From positions 1 to 21,863 of the IMG/VR virus record IMGVR_UViG_3300042691_014309: 21,863 nt of DNA; one strand, given 5' to 3'. The stretch is from a virus. Shown here in pieces: positions 2,699 through 21,024 of the stretch (position 1 is its first letter; every line of letters begins with the position of its first letter). The position numbers and the translations under genes were made by a program. The notes beneath the pieces were generated by a model, which did not search any database, was not told where the DNA came from, and was given only the letters and a program-made list of their open reading frames with translations.

Positions 2699-4165
2699 AT
2701 GAAAAAAGTTGTAAAACTTACCGAATCAAAATTGATTAATATAATAAAAAATGTGATCAACGAACAAGAGGGGGAATATTATGAAATTCCCGCTAGCGAA
2801 TATAAACAATTGTTATCTGCCACAGGTTACAATGGTAGAGTGTTATCTAAAATAAAAAGATTTGAAGGTAAACCAATTAAAGTTCTCGGTAATTTGGATT
2901 TATCTAGTACTCCAGTTCAAGATTTAGGTAAATTATATGTTGTTGGTAATTTATTTTTGCAGCGTAGTAAAATACAAACTCTTGATGATGTTACGGTTAC
3001 TGGTAATATATCTCATTATAGTACACCATATCAGGATAAGTTAGATAGAATTGCAAGACAAAAAATAATTGATGAAGCTAATAGTAGGAGAGAAAATAAT
3101 ATATGGGATCCTGAAGATACTGATGAAGAAGGTTTAATGGCGAATATTGTTTTTAACTATGCGGTTAGAGAAGGCGAACTTAAAGCATTGTCTGATGAAG
3201 AAAAAGTTGAATTAGATAATTTGAAAGAAGAACTTGAGACTGTAGAATCAAGAATGGAAGTTGAAGACGATGAGGAACTTTACGATGAGTTAAGTGAAAA
3301 ATATGATGAGATCCAAGAAAGAATTGATGAGTTAAGTAAATACGTTGATGTTTATGATCTAATCCCAGGAAAATATGGTCATTATAGAATGAATGTTTTT
3401 GAATCACTATCTGAAGGAATTGAATATGCGATTAGTAGTGAGGATGATGCTAGAAAATCATTATATGACTACAATGAAAATCTTATTGATGAAATTGGGT
3501 ATGAAAGTTTTCATAGTTATATAGTTGAAGAATATATTGATAAAGATTCTCTCGCTGATTATCTTGAAGATATGTTTAGAGATGATATATATGAATCACC
3601 GGAAAGTTATGATGTAAAAAGAGAATTAAGTAGTTATCAAGAAGATGAGATTTGGCTTCTTAAAATGGAAAAATGGGTGTATGAAAAGGGTGGTGTTAGA
3701 GCCCCAATACAATATCAAACCAGAGAAAGTGGGAATATCTTTGATTTTATGGATGAAGATGATAACAGATTCCAATTAAAATATGATGGAACAAGATGGG
3801 TATTATATAAAGATGGTTCTGTAGTACAACCAGGACAATTATATGATGATGAAGACACTGATGATCACCAAGATGATCGTGAAAGTAGAATTTCTGATAT
3901 AGAATATGAAATACAAGAAATTGAAGAAAATCCTGAAGGGGATTTGGATGAAGATTCGGTTGAAGAAATTGTTGAGGATAAAAAGGATGAAGTTAGAAAC
4001 GATCCATTGAGATGGATCAAAGATCATGGTTTGGAAATTAAATATTTTATTGACAAAGATGATTTTATAAGAGGTTTATCTAATGATGAGGATTATGGTA
4101 ATTTAAATGGTTATGATGGAACATATGATTATTATGATGGTTATATTGTTATGAGAATTGGCTAA
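2699..4165 (+). CDS. Large acidic protein with N-terminal tag and repeat segment
   Basis: A 488-residue protein with several parts. Residues 1-23 (MKKVVKLTESKLINII plus KNVINEQ) form an amphipathic basic helix with LTE and INE tripeptides, of a kind seen on several proteins in this window. Residues 50-105 hold two or three repeat units of the type GNLDLSSTPVQDLGKL and GNLFLQRSKIQTLDDV, like leucine-rich or beta-solenoid repeats found in phage proteins. Residues about 165-215 are a charged coiled coil, and the remainder is Asp/Glu/Tyr-rich. No enzyme motif is seen. The start was set at ATG 2699 because the TATTTAT box covers the upstream TTG. Possibly an internal or structural virion protein; this is inferred from the tag only. 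Confidence 0.8.
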   Translation: MKKVVKLTESKLINIIKNVINEQEGEYYEIPASEYKQLLSATGYNGRVLSKIKRFEGKPIKVLGNLDLSSTPVQDLGKLYVVGNLFLQRSKIQTLDDVTVTGNISHYSTPYQDKLDRIARQKIIDEANSRRENNIWDPEDTDEEGLMANIVFNYAVREGELKALSDEEKVELDNLKEELETVESRMEVEDDEELYDELSEKYDEIQERIDELSKYVDVYDLIPGKYGHYRMNVFESLSEGIEYAISSEDDARKSLYDYNENLIDEIGYESFHSYIVEEYIDKDSLADYLEDMFRDDIYESPESYDVKRELSSYQEDEIWLLKMEKWVYEKGGVRAPIQYQTRESGNIFDFMDEDDNRFQLKYDGTRWVLYKDGSVVQPGQLYDDEDTDDHQDDRESRISDIEYEIQEIEENPEGDLDEDSVEEIVEDKKDEVRNDPLRWIKDHGLEIKYFIDKDDFIRGLSNDEDYGNLNGYDGTYDYYDGYIVMRIG

Positions 4166-5323: not shown

Positions 5324-5711
5324 AAAAATAATTACCACAGACTTTAGAATGTATGAACCACTCAAAACAAATAGATGGTTGATTGAATTGGAAGGGATGG
5401 ATATCAAACCATACCTTTTCAGGAAATATAAAATTTACAACGAAGGTGAAGACATCATTTTCACAACCGAGTTTGTTGAAACAACTGAGGATGTTGTTAA
5501 TCCAAAAGAGTTTTTTAATATTGTTGGGGTAAAAATTCAATATTTAGATCCAACAGGTGCGGTAATCAATGGGTTAAAGTTTGACATAAAAGGGATGAAT
5601 TTTGAACAAAAAGTGTCATACGCAAAAGATAAATTTAAAATTACAAAATTAAGATTTATTGTTAAATCGGAAACAATACATCCATTATATATAATTGAAA
5701 AAAAAGATTAA
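5316..5711 (+). CDS. Possible virion (tail-tube-like) protein
   Basis: A 131-residue, mostly beta-rich protein. The sequence KTNRWLIELEG near residue 17, followed by alternating hydrophobic strands and a C-terminal strand KLRFIVKSE, resembles the pattern of tail-tube or tail-completion proteins, where an N-terminal R-W-x(2)-E motif introduces a two-sheet sandwich. I see no diagnostic motif, so the assignment is tentative. The gene starts within the end of its predecessor and the next gene starts 1 nt after its stop. No signal peptide or membrane segment. Confidence 0.7.
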   Translation: MAEKIITTDFRMYEPLKTNRWLIELEGMDIKPYLFRKYKIYNEGEDIIFTTEFVETTEDVVNPKEFFNIVGVKIQYLDPTGAVINGLKFDIKGMNFEQKVSYAKDKFKITKLRFIVKSETIHPLYIIEKKD

Positions 5712-5712
5712 A

Positions 5713-6537
5713 ATGGAGTTATTAAAAGGAATGGTAGTTGGTTGCGGTGAAGGTAACATTAGTTGGTATCCCGAAAGAATGTACACCTTACAAGATCTTG
5801 TATATCAAACAAAACCAAAAAATATTATTGAGGTAGGTTTTAACGAAGGACATTCAATGAAGTTAATATGTGATTCATTGGTTAAACTCAAAAACGATGA
5901 CCCAAACTTTAATCAAGAACCAATTAGAATTTTAATCTTTGATGATTGCAAGCATGATAATGTGATTAATAACTTTGAAATTCTTGTTGAACATTATAAA
6001 AAATTTAACATACATTTGAATCTTATTCCCGGTAACTCACTTGAAGTTGTCCCAAGAGTTTTAGATACGGTAAAAAGTAAATTTGATTTTATTGAGATTG
6101 ATGGGTGTCATTTTGAAGAATGTGTTAGGGGAGATTTAAATAATCTGATTAATTTTGTAAGCGATAATGGTATAATATATTTGGATGATTATAAATCCTC
6201 AAAAGACCCAACAGAGGGGGTAAATAAAGTTGTTGATTCATTTGACTGGTATGGATTTAATACCTATTATATTGATGGAGTATTTTGGGCTCATAAAACA
6301 AACAATAAAATGGAAAACAATAAAGAACAAGTTAATCACCCAAGTCATTATGGAGGATCGGATAATCTTTATGAAGCCATCAAGGTGATTGATGCGTGGG
6401 ACTTAGGGTTCAGTTTGGGTAATACCGTAAAGTATATCTCAAGAGCAGGAAAAAAGAATAAGGATAAAGAACTTGAGGATCTAAAGAAAGCCTTATGGTA
6501 CTTACAACATCACATTGAAACATTAGAGAAAAAATGA
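5713..6537 (+). CDS. Fusion: class I SAM methyltransferase plus DUF3310 domain
   Basis: Residues 1-198 look like a Methyltransf_24-type methyltransferase. The SAM-binding glycine loop is IIEVGFNEGHS (about residues 38-48), and IEIDGCHFEECVRGDL followed by GIIYLDDY matches the acidic motifs of that family. The substrate is unknown. From residue 200 (MENNKEQVNHPSHYGG) the protein is a typical DUF3310 domain, with NHPSHY, YEAIKVIDAW, GNTVKYISRAGKK and an ALWYLQHHIE helix. DUF3310 proteins are usually separate small phage proteins of about 70-80 residues. An in-frame ATG at 6310 begins exactly at the DUF3310 domain, so a separate DUF3310 protein may also be made from an internal start. Its stop (TGA 6535-6537) overlaps the start of the DNA methyltransferase. 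Confidence 0.85.
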   Translation: MELLKGMVVGCGEGNISWYPERMYTLQDLVYQTKPKNIIEVGFNEGHSMKLICDSLVKLKNDDPNFNQEPIRILIFDDCKHDNVINNFEILVEHYKKFNIHLNLIPGNSLEVVPRVLDTVKSKFDFIEIDGCHFEECVRGDLNNLINFVSDNGIIYLDDYKSSKDPTEGVNKVVDSFDWYGFNTYYIDGVFWAHKTNNKMENNKEQVNHPSHYGGSDNLYEAIKVIDAWDLGFSLGNTVKYISRAGKKNKDKELEDLKKALWYLQHHIETLEKK

Positions 6538-11798: not shown

Positions 11799-13256
11799 AT
11801 GCTTTTAACAAAAACACTCAAAATAAGGATCACTGGAAATGTTGCTGACTACTATAAAAAAAATAACATAGATGTCATACTCAATGAGTATAATGAATTA
11901 CCAATTGAGTTGGTTAATCCACAAAGTCATCTAATCGTTGATGCGGTTTGCGATGTTTGCGGTAAAGAAGTAAAAATTCAATATAGAAGATACAATCAAT
12001 CAATTAGTAGAGGTGGGTATTATACTTGTTCTTCTGTTTGCAATAAAACAAAACGAGAAAATACCTGTGTTGAAAAATACGGAGAAAAAACCCCCTTCAA
12101 GACAAAGGAGTTTAAAGAAAAATCAAAAAAAACTAGTTTATTAAAATGGGGTACGGAACATTTTAGACAAAGTGAAAAATGGAAATATGAAAATGGGGGT
12201 AAAGAAAAAGAAAAAAGAAAAGAAACAATATTTAAACAATTTTTGATTGATAACCCCCAAGTGATTGATCAAGATGAAAAACATTTTATTGTGAAGTGTG
12301 ATATTCACGGACAATCCAAAATACCTAAAGGTTTATTTGCTAACAGGAAAATAATTAAAACTGAACTATGTTGTGAATGTAATCCGGTTGATAGTAACGT
12401 ATCGGGTAAAGAAATTTTGTTATTCAAATTAATAAGTGAATTATATGATGGTGAGATTATCCAATCATACAAAATTAATCGTAAAGAAATTGATATTTAT
12501 TTACCTAAATTAAAAATAGGATTTGAATTTAATGGTCTTAGGTGGCATTCTGAATTATTCGTTGAGAACGATTACCACATTAAAAAAACCAAAATATGTA
12601 ATGAGAATGGTGTCAGATTGATTCATATATTTGAAGATGATTTTGATTTTAAATATGATATTGTTAAGTCAATAATTGGAAATATTTTAAATACCTCAAA
12701 TAGGGTATATGCCAGAAAAACAAACATAAAAATCATTAAAGATAAAAATATAGTTAAAGAATTTTTGATCAAAAATCACTTACAAGGTTTTGTTAATACT
12801 AACATTAATTATGGATTATATTATAATGGTGAGTTAATATCGTTGATGACTTTTATGAAGACAAGAAAGATTTTGAATAAAAATCAAAAAGACGATGAAT
12901 ATGAGTTAGTTAGATTTTGTAATAAAGTTGGAGTTTCCGTTATCGGAGGAGCATCTAAATTATTTAAACAATTTATTAAAGATTATAATCCTATTAGTGT
13001 GTTATCTTATTGTGATATATCTTGGGCTAATGGTGATTTGTATAAAAATCTTGGATTTGATTTAATTGGGTTAAGTAAACCTAATTATCATTATGTTATT
13101 AATGGTAAACGTGAGAATAGGATTAATTATCAAAAACATAAATTAGTTAAACAAGGTTACGATAAAAATTTAACTGAAGTTGAAATAATGGATGGATTGA
13201 GGTATTATAGAATCTTTAATTGTGGGAATGAGAAATATCTTTATCAGTCAAAATAA
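11799..13256 (+). CDS. Free-standing homing endonuclease, PD-(D/E)XK / Vsr-like
   Basis: A 485-residue protein. The N-terminal part has Cys pairs (CDVCGKEVK, CSSVCNK) that may form a zinc finger, then a charged region with KYGEKTPFKTKEFKEK typical of modular DNA-binding in phage endonucleases, and a second Cys cluster (KCDIHG, CCECN). At about 205-285 SGKEILLFKLI, KEIDIYLPKLKIGFEFNGLRWHSE and GVRLIHIFEDDF resemble the Vsr/EDxHD nuclease fold. The C-terminal 170 residues (FCNKVGVSVIGGASKLFKQF, SYCDISWANGDLYKNLGF) form a GNAT-like domain I associate with phage homing endonucleases. It sits right after the DHH gene and before a convergent DUF192 gene with 13 bases of overlap. Placement suggests insertion next to its target. 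Confidence 0.82.
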   Translation: MLLTKTLKIRITGNVADYYKKNNIDVILNEYNELPIELVNPQSHLIVDAVCDVCGKEVKIQYRRYNQSISRGGYYTCSSVCNKTKRENTCVEKYGEKTPFKTKEFKEKSKKTSLLKWGTEHFRQSEKWKYENGGKEKEKRKETIFKQFLIDNPQVIDQDEKHFIVKCDIHGQSKIPKGLFANRKIIKTELCCECNPVDSNVSGKEILLFKLISELYDGEIIQSYKINRKEIDIYLPKLKIGFEFNGLRWHSELFVENDYHIKKTKICNENGVRLIHIFEDDFDFKYDIVKSIIGNILNTSNRVYARKTNIKIIKDKNIVKEFLIKNHLQGFVNTNINYGLYYNGELISLMTFMKTRKILNKNQKDDEYELVRFCNKVGVSVIGGASKLFKQFIKDYNPISVLSYCDISWANGDLYKNLGFDLIGLSKPNYHYVINGKRENRINYQKHKLVKQGYDKNLTEVEIMDGLRYYRIFNCGNEKYLYQSK

Positions 13257-14207: not shown

Positions 14208-14591
14208 ATGGAAAAAGAATTTGTACCTTATGCTCCGTCATTAAGACTTAAAGCACTTGGGTTTGATGAACCTTGTTTTGGATATTACAAATATGATGAA
14301 TTAATAATAGAAGGAAGGTATAAGAACTCAGACCATGGTTTTTCTATTTCAGCACCAACATTCTCACAAGCCTTCAGATGGTTTAGAGAGAAGCATGATT
14401 TATTTTCTTCTGAGGTTTATGATAGAGGATTGAATAATGGTAAAATACCTGTGATACATTCATATTCATTTAGAATATTGAACCTGAATAATTTTGAAGA
14501 TTTTTATGGAAAGATTTTTAATACATACGAAGAAGCAGAACTTGATTGTCTTGAAAAGCTATTAGAAATTGTAGAATCTAAATCAAAATAA
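14208..14591 (+). CDS. Bacteroidota phage/prophage family protein, paralogue 1
   Basis: A 127-residue protein with a conserved frame shared with the next two genes: MEKEFVPYAPSLRLKALGFD then EPCFGYYK, a variable middle, APTFSQAFRWFREKHDLFS, a variable strand region, and a C-terminal helix EEAELDCLEKLLEIVESKSK. This type of protein is common in Bacteroidota genomes and prophages as a hypothetical protein; no biochemical function is known to me. It is the first of three tandem copies under the promoter at 14161. Confidence 0.85.
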   Translation: MEKEFVPYAPSLRLKALGFDEPCFGYYKYDELIIEGRYKNSDHGFSISAPTFSQAFRWFREKHDLFSSEVYDRGLNNGKIPVIHSYSFRILNLNNFEDFYGKIFNTYEEAELDCLEKLLEIVESKSK

Positions 14592-14592
14592 T

Positions 14593-15012
14593 ATGGAAAA
14601 AGAATTTGTACCATATCCACTTGCTTTAAGATTAAAAGCACTTGGGTTTGATGGACCTTGTTTTGGGTTTTATAAATTAGGTGATATTGATATTTATTAT
14701 GACACAATACTCCAAGGAAAAAATCATAAATTCAGAAACAATACTCAGCTAAATTTTTATGGTGATTTAAAGGAAAAAGTTTCAGCCCCTACCTTCTCAC
14801 AAGCATTTAGATGGTTTAGAGAGAAGCATAACTTACACTCATTTATTGATTGTAAGTGGAAAAATCTAGGTTGGGAATTTGAATTAGTTGATTTGAATAA
14901 GATGGAAGTAGTATCACTAATTGGTAAAAAATATGGATATAACACTCCCGAAGAAGCAGAACTTGCTTGCTTGGAAAAATTAATTGAAATTGTTGAATCT
15001 AAATCAAAATAA
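14593..15012 (+). CDS. Same family, paralogue 2
   Basis: A 139-residue second copy: MEKEFVPYPLALRLKALGFD, GPCFGFYK, then a longer insert (LGDIDIYYDTILQGKNHKF), APTFSQAFRWFREKHNLHSF, and EEAELACLEKLIEIVESKSK. It starts 1 nt after the stop of copy 1. Conserved ends and a divergent middle suggest that the variable centre carries specificity. Confidence 0.85.
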   Translation: MEKEFVPYPLALRLKALGFDGPCFGFYKLGDIDIYYDTILQGKNHKFRNNTQLNFYGDLKEKVSAPTFSQAFRWFREKHNLHSFIDCKWKNLGWEFELVDLNKMEVVSLIGKKYGYNTPEEAELACLEKLIEIVESKSK

Positions 15013-15013
15013 T

Positions 15014-15394
15014 ATGGAAAAAGAATTTGTACCTTATGAGTTGGCTTTAAGAATGAAAGCACTTGGATTTGATGAGCCTTGTTTTGGTGTTTATGACCCC
15101 GATTCTACATTTCATGAAATCCGCTCAATATATTCAATTTCATTTTTAAATAATATTGAAGATAGAGTATTAGCTCCAACATTCTCACAAGCATTTAGAT
15201 GGTTTAGAGAGAAGTATGATTTGAGAATTTGGATTGAATCTAATTATGGTGTTGCAAAGTTTGAATATGTAATTGCCACAACAAACCCTAATTTCATAGA
15301 TAAACAATTCAATGACTTATCAGCTTATAAAACCTACGAAAAAGCAGAACTTGCTTGTCTTGATAAGTTATTAGAAATTGTTGAAAATAAATAA
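15014..15394 (+). CDS. Same family, paralogue 3
   Basis: A 126-residue third copy: MEKEFVPYELALRMKALGFD, EPCFGVYD, APTFSQAFRWFREKYDLRIW, and a C-terminus EKAELACLDKLLEIVENK. The junctions between copies (AAATCAAAATAATATGGAAA) are identical, showing tandem duplication or ongoing gene conversion at the ends. A short gap (7 nt) then leads to the lipoprotein gene, so all may be one transcript. Confidence 0.85.
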   Translation: MEKEFVPYELALRMKALGFDEPCFGVYDPDSTFHEIRSIYSISFLNNIEDRVLAPTFSQAFRWFREKYDLRIWIESNYGVAKFEYVIATTNPNFIDKQFNDLSAYKTYEKAELACLDKLLEIVENK

Positions 15395-16514: not shown

Positions 16515-17276
16515 ATGAATATTAGAAGAATTTTAATTTCCGAACAAGAAAAGAAAGATATATTATCACAATATGGTGTGAAAAAAGATGTTATCTCTGA
16601 ACAAACATTAAACTCTGATGGGACATATGTGGTTAAACGTGATCAAGTATTTTATAGTAGTGGTGAGCAGTTAGGTGGATCAGCATCAAAAGTTTATGTT
16701 AGAAAAGATACTATAGTATATCCAGATAAAGATGGTAAATCAGTTATATTTAATGTTTATTATAAAGAAAACAATCAATTTAAACTATCGGGTAGTAAAG
16801 GTAAATTAAATTGTGGTCAAAATATTATAAACGTTGGTAGCCAAACCTATCAACAAGCGCCAGACACTGGACAACCATTTAAAACCACAATTAATAAAAT
16901 GTTTTGTGGTGGTGATATTTTAAAAACTAAAAAGACGGAAACAAAACAAAAATCAAAAACAATTAAGTTAACATTATCTGACGAAGAAAAATGTTTATTA
17001 CCTAACGACAATGTGTGGCAGTATGCCAAACAAAAAGATAGATGGTTTGCATCTAAAAATGGTATTGATTGGTTTGATATTACAAATAATAGTAAGGCAA
17101 CTACCCTATTAAAATCTAGTTGCAAATCGTTGAAAGATATTTTGGCTTTTATCCCACCTGTAATTAGTGATGATGAAACACTTCCACCAATACCAACATC
17201 ACCGGATAGTAAAAATGTAATTAGTAAAAATAATGCCCCTGACATGGATAACGAAGTCCGAAACATGGGTAATTAA
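16515..17276 (+). CDS. Protein of unknown function with N-terminal ISEQ-type tag
   Basis: A 253-residue protein. The first 30 residues (MNIRRILISEQEKKDI, then YGVKKDVISEQ) match a recurrent N-terminal pattern in this window, with ISE at two points. The central part is beta-rich (FYSSGEQLGGSASKVYVRKD) with three or four Cys, and the C-terminal tail is Pro-, Ser- and Asn-rich (FIPPVISDDETLPPIPTS). No enzyme motif is found. The start is ATG 16515 since it lies right after the promoter; earlier codons run through the terminator. Possibly an internal virion or baseplate-associated protein. Confidence 0.75.
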   Translation: MNIRRILISEQEKKDILSQYGVKKDVISEQTLNSDGTYVVKRDQVFYSSGEQLGGSASKVYVRKDTIVYPDKDGKSVIFNVYYKENNQFKLSGSKGKLNCGQNIINVGSQTYQQAPDTGQPFKTTINKMFCGGDILKTKKTETKQKSKTIKLTLSDEEKCLLPNDNVWQYAKQKDRWFASKNGIDWFDITNNSKATTLLKSSCKSLKDILAFIPPVISDDETLPPIPTSPDSKNVISKNNAPDMDNEVRNMGN

Positions 17277-17824: not shown

Positions 17825-18766
17825 ATGGAATGTAAAGTTTGTAAAAAAGAATTAGTTGGTAAATCAAAAATTTTGTGTAATATTTGTACAAATAAAAAAC
17901 ATAAAATTTTATGTAAAAAATGTGGAAAAGAATGTGAAATATCCGCAGGATATGTTAGAAGAATAGATTTGGTTACTTTTAATTGTAAACAATGTAAGTT
18001 ACACGGAGAGGGTAATCCTAATTTTGGAAAAAAATGGTCAATAGAAAAACGAAAAAAATTTTCTGAACTAACTAAAAGTAGAGTTGATGAAAATTATAGA
18101 AAAAAATGCTCAAAAGGGATGAAAGGGAAAAAAGTTTCTGAAGATGCTAAAAATAAAAGAAAAATAACAAATAGTTTAAAAATATTAAATGGATATGTTA
18201 AACCAGAAATGAGTGAAAAAACCAAAGAAAAAATTGGTAAAAAATCTTCATTAAAATTCACTGAAGAGTATAAACAAAAAATGAGGGTTATAAACGAAAA
18301 AAATGGTGTTTGGATTCCGTTAGAAAAAAAAGATGATTATAAGTTTTACCGTGAAATTTCCAATTGGGTTGGACAAGTTATAACCGAAAATACAATTGGT
18401 GTTGAAAATTTAAAAAACGGTGTTTTATTCAATAAAGAAAATAAAAATAAAAATAAACCATTTTATGTTAGAGATCATATTTTTGGTAGAAAAAATGGAT
18501 TTTATATGGGGGTTTTTCCGGAAATCATTAGACATCCGTCAAATTGTCAACTAATTACCCACGGAGATAATGTTAGAAAATCTTTTAAAAATAATGACTC
18601 TGAAATAGAACTAAATGAACTTTTTAATAAAATAATAAATTGGGGATTAGAATATTTTGAACAATCCTTATGTCTTGAATTGATAAATAATTATAAAAAC
18701 GGTGAAAGATATAATAAAAATGATTATATTTGTAAAATAAAAAATAATAAGTATGTTAAAATTTAA
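17825..18766 (+). CDS. Free-standing HNH homing endonuclease with NUMOD3 motif
   Basis: A 313-residue protein. Two N-terminal Cys clusters (CKVCKKELV, CNIC; then CKKCGKEC, CKQC) look like zinc fingers. A NUMOD3-type DNA-binding motif follows (GEGNPNFGKKWSIEKRKKFS, about residues 60-79), with more SEKTKEKIGKKSS-type repeats. The HNH nuclease core is at the C-terminal side: VRDHIFGRKNG (Asp217, His218), HPSNCQLITHGDNVRKS. Such enzymes cut double-stranded DNA of related phages lacking the gene. It overlaps the start of the metallophosphoesterase gene by 14 bases and shares its promoter. Its composition (very Lys-rich, AT-rich) is more extreme than its neighbours, consistent with a mobile gene. 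Confidence 0.88.
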   Translation: MECKVCKKELVGKSKILCNICTNKKHKILCKKCGKECEISAGYVRRIDLVTFNCKQCKLHGEGNPNFGKKWSIEKRKKFSELTKSRVDENYRKKCSKGMKGKKVSEDAKNKRKITNSLKILNGYVKPEMSEKTKEKIGKKSSLKFTEEYKQKMRVINEKNGVWIPLEKKDDYKFYREISNWVGQVITENTIGVENLKNGVLFNKENKNKNKPFYVRDHIFGRKNGFYMGVFPEIIRHPSNCQLITHGDNVRKSFKNNDSEIELNELFNKIINWGLEYFEQSLCLELINNYKNGERYNKNDYICKIKNNKYVKI

Positions 18767-19423
18767 AAAAATAATATCCGAGGGAAACACAGGTAGAGTG
18801 TGGATTACCTCGGATACTTAACTCATTTCGGTCACAAAAATATTGTGCGTGGTGTTACAAACTGGAGAACCCATGATGGTGAAGTTCCGGAGAACTCAAC
18901 AAGGGATTTTCAAACAATTGAACAAATGAATGATGCAATTGTAAACAACATTAACTCTGTTGTTGGACAAGATGATACATTAATTATGCTTGGTGATGTT
19001 TCATTTGGTGGGTTTGATAATATTGGATTATTTTTGGATAGGTTGGTTTGTAAAAACATCCACTTGATTCTTGGTAATCACGATCATCACATTGAGAATG
19101 ACCGAGGCGGAATCCAAGATAAGTTTTTGAGTATCCAACATTATTTGGAGGTTAAAATTGGAGATCATTCTTTTGTTATGTGTCATTATCCACTCCAAAG
19201 TTGGAATGGAATGAATAAAGGTGTTATCCATCTTCACGGACACGTTCATCTACCTGAACACCGAAAGTTTGGGAATGGAAAGAAAATGGATGTTGGTGTT
19301 GATGGCAATGGTATGAAACCATATAGTATTGACGAAATCATTAAAATAATGGATAAAAGGATGGTTGCGTCTGAAATCTTGGATGATCATCATTTGGATG
19401 GTAAACTCGGAGTTGTGGGATAA
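18753..19423 (+). CDS. Calcineurin-like metallophosphoesterase interrupted by a 5-nt stop-containing insert
   Basis: The frame begins at ATG 18753 (MLKFKKIISEGNTGRVWITS, then DT) and meets TAA at 18819-18821. Five bases later the second frame continues HFGHKNIVRGVTNW to 19423. Skipping TAACT joins them as VWITSDTHFGHKN, the exact first metal-binding motif (D21, H23). Downstream are GDVS, GNHDHH, CHYPL and GHVH, the rest of the two-metal centre, so everything else is intact. The hopped length is 221 residues; (671 minus 5) divides by three. A GTG start at 18800 is possible but would begin MDYLGYLTHFGH and lack the first strand and the metal-binding Asp. The gene starts within the end of the HNH endonuclease gene. 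Substrate unknown. Confidence 0.85.
18775..18823 (+). other. Candidate translational bypass element in the metallophosphoesterase gene
   Basis: TATCCGAGG (18775-18783) pairs perfectly with CCTCGGATA (18808-18816), 9 bp, with an inner CACA/TGTG stem in the loop. The 3' arm ends on the first base of the take-off codon ACT (18816-18818). TA follows, then ACT again (18821-18823) as landing codon, and the TA plus A make TAA in the zero frame. The next codon is CAT. The layout mirrors the element at 10343-10432, with a 5-nt instead of 6-nt hop. Confidence 0.72.
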
Positions 19424-19449: not shown

Positions 19450-19767
19450 ATGAAGAAATATATCATTACAGAGTCACAAAATAAATTCCTCAAAAGAATT
19501 AGGAGAATCGGAGAATTGAGAGATATTATTCAGTTCCAAGTACAAATTCAGGATCCTTGTAATTTTAGTGATGGTGACGAATACGCTCATTTTTGTATTA
19601 ATGAAGGTATGAGATTCTTTTTTGGTGATGAAGACTATGAAAGGGATGATGATGTATTTTCAGATGAAGAAAGAAATGAAGGTAGAGAGGAAATTGAAAA
19701 GTTAATGTTTGATGACTATTATGACGATTTCGTTGAACTCTGGAATGAAATTTCTGATGATTGTTAA
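19450..19767 (+). CDS. Small acidic protein with ITESQ tag
   Basis: A 105-residue protein. The first residues MKKYIITESQNKFLKRIRRI match the N-terminal tag seen on neighbouring genes. The remainder is strongly acidic (YERDDDVFSDEERNEGREEI, FDDYYDDFVELWNEISDDC) and helical, giving a polarised basic-then-acidic protein. No motif or function is recognised. It is 12 nt upstream of the metalloprotease gene and probably cotranscribed with it. Confidence 0.78.
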   Translation: MKKYIITESQNKFLKRIRRIGELRDIIQFQVQIQDPCNFSDGDEYAHFCINEGMRFFFGDEDYERDDDVFSDEERNEGREEIEKLMFDDYYDDFVELWNEISDDC

Positions 19768-19779
19768 TAAAGTATTGAT

Positions 19780-21024
19780 ATGAAAAAAGTTATTATAACA
19801 GAAACACAATATGATCTAATATCAAAAAGTTTGATTAGTGAAGCCGTTGGGGTTCCTGAATTCGTTATGGATTCTGCGGAAAAATTATATGGTATTGTGT
19901 CGGCATTTCTAAAAAAGATAGATAAAAAACAAGACGAATATAAACTAAAAACAAACGTAAATCTACCAATTGGTGATGAAGTTTTAAGGACTTTAAAACT
20001 TTCTGTACATACCGAAGAACTTGCTGGGTATAAAGGAAAAGTGGAGATTGCATCAATGGGAGTTTCATACGCATTTAAATTTGATAGAGGTATTTTAATG
20101 CAGATTAATGAAACATCTAGTGAGATAGAATTAAATGTGAATTTTGTTACATCAAGTGAGTGGGAACCAAAGGATCTATACGATAGATTCGTTAGGGATG
20201 AGGTTAATACCATATCAGTAATGGCTCACGAATTAAAACATAGATTTGATAGATTAAAAAAGAAGGTAGAACTTGTTGGTGGAACGGCGGATTATCAGGC
20301 CTATTCTAAAGGAATGTCTTTTGGTATTCCGGTGATTGAAGAATTTATGAGGAATAGTTATTTTATTCAAAATGCCGAAAACTTGGTGAGACCTACAGAG
20401 ATTGCAACAAGAATGATTAAAAAAGGTATAACAAGAGATGAGTTTTACGAGTTCATAACAAATGATATTGTTTATGATGAATTAAAAGAAATAAAAAACT
20501 TCTCATTTGAACATTTAATTTCTGGTTTAAAAAGTCAAATGGGTAGATGTGATGAATTATTGAAGTTTGTTGGGTTAAAACCAAAAACAATGTCCATTGA
20601 GAAAAAAATTGAGGAAGTATTGATAATTGTTTATGTTAATATTGTAAATGCCAAAATGGAGGCTTTTGATAATTATTTCTTTGATCATTATGATATGATG
20701 GTACAACAGATGGGGCCTTTGGTTAAAATGTTTATGGAACAAGCACCAAATCAAGAAGAGAAAGAAAAAATTAGAGATAAATATATTAGATATGTTATTA
20801 AATATGAAGGTAGAGAAATTGATTTCTTTAAAGATGAGTGTGAAAAGTTTAATTATATTGCAACAAAAGTGATGAAAAAAATATCAAAAGTATATTCCCT
20901 TCTACCTGAAGAAGATAAAACGCAAACCAATGAGTCAATATTGGATTGGGATCTACATCAAAAAATGATGGAAAAAAAATACGGAAAAAGACCAATAGAA
21001 AACACGTACAATTTCAAAAAATAA
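19780..21024 (+). CDS. Predicted zinc metalloprotease (HELKH) with N-terminal tag
   Basis: A 414-residue protein. The N-terminal tag is MKKVIITETQYDLISKSLIS followed by EA. A beta-rich segment (residues 80-130) precedes an active-site helix TISVMAHELKHRFDRLKK with HExxH at 150-154 (H150, E151, H154), the zincin signature. About 50 residues later NLVRPTEIATRMIKKG supplies a plausible third ligand, Glu. The last 150 residues are helical and charged. Such HELxH proteins are found in large phages, often unannotated. A tagged protease would fit ejection with the DNA, acting early in the host; that is inference. No signal peptide. Confidence 0.8.
   Translation: MKKVIITETQYDLISKSLISEAVGVPEFVMDSAEKLYGIVSAFLKKIDKKQDEYKLKTNVNLPIGDEVLRTLKLSVHTEELAGYKGKVEIASMGVSYAFKFDRGILMQINETSSEIELNVNFVTSSEWEPKDLYDRFVRDEVNTISVMAHELKHRFDRLKKKVELVGGTADYQAYSKGMSFGIPVIEEFMRNSYFIQNAENLVRPTEIATRMIKKGITRDEFYEFITNDIVYDELKEIKNFSFEHLISGLKSQMGRCDELLKFVGLKPKTMSIEKKIEEVLIIVYVNIVNAKMEAFDNYFFDHYDMMVQQMGPLVKMFMEQAPNQEEKEKIRDKYIRYVIKYEGREIDFFKDECEKFNYIATKVMKKISKVYSLLPEEDKTQTNESILDWDLHQKMMEKKYGKRPIENTYNFKK

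Follow-up and report, generated by a model that had tools for sequence, protein, structure and literature searches.

A phage protein with an HExxH motif and an exchangeable N-terminal tag is a candidate head-packaged zinc protease

Here, we analysed a 21,863-base virus record from IMG/VR (IMGVR_UViG_3300042691_014309, hereafter the window) and found that it encodes a tagged HExxH protein, P0001, which we predict to be a zinc metallopeptidase (positions 19,780–21,024, plus strand; 414 amino acids, ATG start). We consider it fairly likely that P0001 is a protease that is packaged into the phage head, trimmed at E21|A22 and ejected with the DNA to cut a host protein early in infection. In such a mechanism, the tag of about 21 residues would serve as a capsid-targeting propeptide that recruits P0001 to the prohead core and would be cut off behind E21 by an S77 (gp21-type) prohead protease as the head matures. 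The trimmed enzyme, with AVGVPE as its N-terminus, would then be ejected together with the DNA and would cleave its host substrate at an early stage. We infer zinc binding, activity, cleavage, packaging, ejection, host substrate and host group of P0001 from comparisons of sequences and models. That the predicted protease would cut proteins of host defence or transcription, as proposed in an original prediction made from the letters of the window, is plausible. If this holds true, abundant uncultured phages would bring ready-made proteases into the cell, which would act before phage gene expression.

The protein family and its predicted active site

Relatives of P0001 were gathered in scans of IMG/VR, of which the first gave 4 loci and the second 33 loci, while 80 of 82 relatives, 4 of them matching the tail alone, were retained in a third scan with a broader alignment. 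From the loci, we chose 28 distinct rows so as to span the family (the window protein and 27 relatives with 28–55% identity to it). In named phages, tblastn with P0001 gave no match at E ≤ 1 and the proteins of loci L118 and L129 gave none at E ≤ 0.1; tblastn with the L127 protein found one weak match (E 2e-3) in LR745206, the 634,780-bp record of an uncultured phage. None of 55 pattern matches in GTDB bacterial and archaeal genomes encodes a P0001 relative, and among the papers listed in literature searches on capsid targeting, prohead proteases, the tag, packaged metalloproteases and injected effectors, none describes a P0001-like protein in its title or abstract.

The open reading frame, the HELKH motif at residues 150–154 (positions 20,227–20,241, plus strand) and RPTEIATR further downstream were all confirmed as originally described. 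HExxH is invariant in alignments of 5, 22 and 28 rows (5/5, 22/22 and 28/28, the window row counted in each), and H150, E151, H154, E200, V203, R204 and E207 are all invariant in the 28 rows. The motif appeared in 143 of 20,000 composition shuffles of P0001 and in 3 of 376 gene-like ORFs of the related 304-kb record G005, the P0001 homologue being among the three; given the shuffles and the invariance across 28 rows, we rejected an occurrence by chance. Membership of P0001 in a zinc protease family, with activity and zinc binding predicted, is thus strongly supported, and the claim of a zinc metalloprotease is backed by an invariant HExxH that lies inside a predicted helix.

The third zinc ligand had been assigned to the Glu of RPTEIATR, which, as this motif spans residues 204–211, is E207 (positions 20,398–20,400, plus strand). 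This choice is doubtful. The protein encoded in LR745206, which we take as a distant homologue in view of its alignment and of blastp, where 185 residues matched at 26% (E 2e-7; small database), keeps HELTH, Glu at 200 and Arg at 204 but carries Gln at 207; E200 (positions 20,377–20,379, plus strand; invariant in 28/28 rows) is thus the likelier ligand, a preference drawn from one sequence of about 20% identity.

Structure models and fold searches

HELKH lies within a helix both in the AF2 model of the full protein (helix 141–159; mean pLDDT 76.5, 22 sequences) and in that of the domain spanning residues 24–268 (mean pLDDT 88.0, 28 sequences). The predicted core starts with a beta-rich half, followed by the HELKH helix and then by more helices; E200 and E207 share one helix (198–215) in the full model and occupy two short adjoining helices in the domain model. 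A PDB fold search with the full model and the core domain gave no match at E ≤ 0.001, and no Z of 5 or more was reached by the full or the domain model in a second PDB fold comparison. Of the features expected of a zincin, the models thus show HExxH within a helix, and the PDB gave no clear match for the fold.

Weak rows for the full model included M1 zinc aminopeptidases (e.g. 6ydx, Z 4.2, rmsd 4.7, 151 aligned residues) amid unrelated ones, whereas no M1 aminopeptidase was among the 50 matches listed for the domain model. Two anthrax lethal-factor chains were among the weak rows for the domain model (Z 2.4/2.2, rmsd 6.5/6.3, 112/110 residues), which we took as a common arrangement. In BFVD, a fold search reached E ≤ 0.001 with three phage proteins, all of them uncharacterised. 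No Pfam family, including SprT, ArdC or similar ones, exceeded its cut-off for P0001; rows below the cut-off were VAPB_antitox (E 0.00058), MreB-like (0.02) and M91 (0.066). Peptidase_M91 (PF14891) aligned weakly with the HExxH region (residues 57–165) and, at 14 bits, stayed below its cut-off of 25. PHROG gave nothing at E ≤ 0.1 (best E 0.24), NCBIfam no model at E ≤ 0.1, and the five-row profile A1 matched no PDB sequence at E ≤ 10.

Could P0001 then be a catalytically dead, zincin-like internal protein with a structural role? The lack of a clear fold match and the uncertain third ligand would be in line with this, but the invariance of H, E and H in 28/28 rows, the HELTH of the LR745206 relative and the fact that the core, where it is replaced (see below), is again an HExxH domain make it very unlikely.

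The N-terminal tag and its junction

Residues 1–21 (positions 19,780–19,842, plus strand) form the tag, a predicted capsid-targeting propeptide that ends in L-I-S-E. The predicted prohead-protease cleavage site E21|A22 lies at positions 19,840–19,845 and the predicted mature N-terminus AVGVPE, which is conserved, at positions 19,843–19,860 (both plus strand). Across the 28 rows, P1 is Glu in all, P3 is Leu in 15, Ile in 11 and Met in 2, and P1' is Ala in 25 and Arg, Lys or Thr in one each; V, L or A follows, then GVP (27 rows) or GIP (one row). The window protein's own junction reads L-I-S-E|A. The three rows without Ala at P1' and the two with Met at P3 count against our reading. Up to this Glu the tags vary: close relatives have long (M.KIIITE.Q..LI.K.LLSE) as well as short versions (MKIIITESQ..LIKE), IIITESQxxLIKE tags are among those joined at the common Glu, and other tags in distant relatives (IIKKVLRE, IKQLLRE, LKKLIKEEVTNMLE) are joined at the identical position. 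Tags that differ in length and sequence are, to judge by these alignments, exchanged at the junction Glu. The putative targeting tag noted in the original prediction is thus conserved in kind, with an [I/L/M]-x-Glu end in 28/28 rows. The LR745206 homologue (L313:916-2262, LR745206.1) has a far longer N-terminal extension with a junction of the same kind, ..VLNE|KLGVP.

According to section 2.5 of PMC9026906, T4 gp21 cuts after L/I-X-E, and T4 internal proteins are described as carrying propeptides of 10–20 residues, termed capsid-targeting sequences (PMC5694885). Foreign proteins fused to the capsid-targeting sequence of IPIII were packaged (PMC9026906), and the internal proteins as well as Alt, with a propeptide of 7 residues, are processed, many of them being ejected (PMC9026906, PMC5694885). 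The [I/L/M]-x-Glu junction of P0001 fits the gp21 motif and also the site at which the major capsid protein of related phages is predicted to be cut (see below), which suggests propeptide processing and head packaging of P0001. Like IPI, IPII, IPIII and Alt of T4, P0001 has a short N-terminal propeptide-like peptide ending in L/I-x-E, and like the tags of T4 internal proteins, this kind of tag is found on unrelated proteins. In contrast to these, the cargo of P0001 is an HExxH domain, the tag classes are different, a conserved C-terminal TNESI..W tail is present and packaging is predicted. These likenesses suggest that P0001 is a variant on the T4-type capsid-targeted internal proteins, which are a known kind.

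Ejection (inner body) proteins of the giant phages phiKZ and SPN3US are head proteins cut after x-x-E, several of which are delivered with the DNA according to PMC5694885 and PMC13282480. The likeness to P0001 would lie in processing and delivery; SPN3US propeptides are mostly much longer and end in A-X-E, and the phiKZ motif, given as S/A/G-X-E in the same sources, is unlike [I/L/M]-x-E.

The same kind of tag on other proteins

The tag is common to otherwise unrelated proteins. Three further tagged proteins are encoded in the window, all on the plus strand: a small one directly upstream of P0001 (MKKYIITESQ..., positions 19,450–19,767), one with a homologue in G005 (MNIRRILISEQEKKDILSQYG..., positions 16,515–17,276) and a third one at positions 2,699–4,165 (MKKVVKLTESKLINIIKNVINEQ...). 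In the 376 non-overlapping gene-like ORFs of at least 60 amino acids in G005, a tag motif, which was defined after examples had been seen, gave 34 hits (31 ORFs) within the first 25 residues compared to 17 elsewhere (18-fold, binomial p = 2.7e-22), whereby three ORFs matched twice and at least one match, a DNA polymerase, is spurious. Pfam scans of 19 of the 31 tagged ORFs left 16 without a family over cut-off; the other three were two DUF6576 proteins and said DNA polymerase, a false positive of the motif. At least three N-terminal tag classes (KKVIRLTESDLTRIVKRVINE, KIIITESQ and RILISEEEKQRIL) occur in G005 (loci L035-L050) on many unrelated proteins. The tagged proteins of G005 thus form a candidate list of packaged proteins and, if our reading is true, the tag would be a sequence rule by which such candidates can be listed without phage isolation.

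A cleavage-type site ([ILM]xE[AGSTQ]) was found near the N-terminus of 14/31 tagged and 48/345 untagged ORFs in G005. As just 14 of the 31 have it, many tagged proteins may escape cleavage, and the 17 tagged ORFs without such a site would also suit a protein that is never packaged, i.e. an intracellular protease or host-takeover enzyme whose tag serves, for example, localisation or oligomerisation. The coincidence of the junction, the capsid cleavage motif and the point of core exchange speaks against this, and we regard it as quite unlikely. The original claim of packaging, which we continue to favour, gains indirect support from the concordance of junction and capsid site and from the exchange of tags and cores at the cleavage Glu.

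Prohead protease, capsid protein and phage group

In a first set of 9 records, which includes the window, a search for an S77 (gp21-type) prohead protease was successful in one; in a second set of 15, mostly large ones, it was successful in 10 (11 of 24 in total). For a gp23-type capsid protein, the corresponding counts are 1 of 9 and 11 of 15. Homologues of T4 gp21 and gp23 were thus found in about half of the related records searched. The S77 protease was not found in the 21.9-kb window, which is a fragment. S77 and gp23 are both missing in G018 (274 kb), G019 (224 kb) and G004 (214 kb), and in G016 (206 kb) S77 was not found and the gp23 gene is present only in part; these misses in long records count against our reading, although the records may be fragments as well. 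The predicted cleavage site of the capsid protein reads LINE|A in G005; of 10 further loci, several of which are near-identical, nine have LINE|A and one has LLTE|A.

In G005, a bS21 gene lies near the prohead protease gene on the reverse strand, a placement likewise described in PMC9723584 for freshwater Bacteroidetes-infecting huge phages; bS21 matches occur in 3 of 9 records, two of them over cut-off. The closest capsid proteins of isolates are those of Microcystis phage Mel-JY01 and Flavobacterium phage immuto and, as these are about 38–40% identical over half of the query, we infer the host of the window's phage. The phages carrying P0001 would be T4-like huge phages that probably infect Bacteroidetes. 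Phage immuto has no match to the P0001 family; a literature search listed no proteomics for it, and it is not mentioned in passages from one paper on Baltic Flavobacterium phages.

A match to the gene was obtained in none of eight records. These were immuto and, out of 80 records listed for a related capsid protein, the 7 longest; one of the latter is a 296-kb record with a 78%-identical capsid protein and the other six have 74–152 kb. Most are fragments, and the search had no positive control of its own. That the gene was not found in the 296-kb relative would suit an accessory host-interaction factor, and the gene seems to be accessory.

These data also bear on the question whether P0001 might be packaged for a different purpose, as a helper protease of maturation that breaks down scaffold or tags inside the head and is not directed at the host. 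Tag and junction would indeed put P0001 in the prohead, and PMC7824862 puts forward a role in maturation for a zincin that group 1 jumbo phages conserve. Yet the gene and the head genes are about 120 kb apart in the linear contig G005, it was not found in the 296-kb relative (by the search without positive control mentioned above), and some phages have an unrelated HExxH domain in place of the core, a swap which in our expectation counts against an assembly enzyme with fixed substrates. We thus consider such an in-head role unlikely and prefer a host-directed protease. For zincins of jumbo phages (SprT-like, ArdC-like, AMR59696) and for injected polyvalent proteins, PMC7824862 proposes cutting of host proteins or maturation. 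By their descriptions, P0001 is set apart from these zincins as a stand-alone protein of 414 amino acids with a T4-type tag, and injected polyvalent proteins are very large and multidomain, whereas P0001 has no Pfam domain over cut-off.

The C-terminal tail and the exchange of the core

The C-terminal tail TNESILDWDLHQKMMEKKYGKRPIE (positions 20,926–21,000, plus strand) is retained where the core is swapped. In a search by the tail alone, 80 of 129 loci were retained, 79 of which were read (L015, already in the set, was omitted). Among these 79 tail-bearing ORFs, 71 have the window-type core, one (L212) is an incomplete copy of the usual type, and seven (L148, L149, L151, L160, L170, L196 and L197) have a different, small HExxH core; two groups among them consist of identical copies (L148, L149 and L151; L196 and L197), and four of the seven copies are contigs of L129-L132. 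The swapped core is shorter and reads AHEVAHLLLKH or AHEVTHLLLNH, followed downstream by EIEAD or EMEAD, while the kind of tag and the tail are as usual. When the L129 protein was compared with the family by profile, only residues 143–185 aligned, which comprise the tail and a few residues before it.

The exchange can be followed at the DNA level by blastn of L129 against 16 relatives with the usual core. On the left side, L129 is 79–91% identical over 716–739 bases in 15 of 16 relatives, the sixteenth being cut short there. This homology stops exactly at the last base of the tag Glu codon in 8 of the 15 and earlier in 7; where such alignments end is affected by the scoring, yet not one extends beyond the Glu codon. 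In 12 of 16 relatives the homology restarts 2 bases upstream of the QTNES codons, the other four giving no alignment over the tail. As the break lies at or before the Glu codon, the point of exchange coincides with the predicted maturation site.

The surrounding gene order is largely preserved. F1, F3, F2, the P0001-type gene and F4 follow each other in the usual loci and also at L129, F2 being a metallophosphoesterase that adjoins upstream in most compared loci (positions 18,800–19,423 of the window, plus strand) and F1 a protein that we take to have a P-loop motif. L170 has the usual order as well; in L196, F3 is directly upstream, F1 and F2 are not in the stretch, and F24 and F4 follow downstream as usual.

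The E.EAD motif of the swapped core is, we assume, a likeness to ImmA/IrrE (Peptidase_M78), which is also a small HExxH domain and differs from the window core. The L129 protein scored 14.4 bits against a Peptidase_M78 cut-off of 22, and the scores of Pfam M48 and of the NCBIfam Lit model were also below their cut-offs; the swapped core of L129-L132, L170, L196 and L197 is hence named ImmA/IrrE-like by its motif alone. Residues 81–123 of the L129 protein (L129:5545-6099) weakly resemble the phage-exclusion protease Lit (PRK09672, E 0.0014, 17.9 bits against a cut-off of 274).

That one HExxH domain takes the place of another while tag and tail stay fixed argues that proteolysis as such is selected and that the target varies. 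As a broader hypothesis, which we hold tentatively and at somewhat below even chances, huge phages related to the freshwater Bacteroidetes bS21 clade would keep at this locus a processed head-targeting peptide and the TNESI..W tail, with unrelated zinc proteases swapped in between at the predicted cut codon and, in some copies, a SET methyltransferase domain behind the tail, and different host-cutting proteases would be injected by a common route. If so, the two exchangeable cores would help to find host proteins worth cutting at the start of infection.

We also considered the TNES tail as a second prohead-protease site, which we think unlikely since Thr occupies P3 (in some, Ala-Thr or the like) and since the proteins of L115-L119 and L012 do not end with the tail but carry it internally. 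In L012 (L012:9968-11596) and also in L013, L014 and L016, the protease ORF continues in frame beyond the tail with a SET domain, identified in L012, the one copy scanned, as PF00856 (E 2.4e-10, over cut-off); this tagged protein may have a second effector domain. L006 (L006:7592-9079) and L007 have another C-terminal extension after the same tail (DGRYYFWKDRSGGYQVSKSH...), for which no Pfam family exceeded its cut-off in L006.

Other observations in the window

No tRNA genes were found in the 21,863 bases. Two ORFs of the window, at positions 17,825–18,766, between the conserved F1 and F2 genes, and 11,799–13,256, have no counterpart in 22 other loci compared and are presumably insertions of the homing-endonuclease type. 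A methyltransferase (PF13578) and DUF3310 (PF11753) are fused in one ORF at positions 5,695–6,537. Three tandem paralogues at positions 14,208–15,394, which begin with EKEFVPY and contain ALR or SLR as well as KALGFD.PCFG, point to a local gene triplication.
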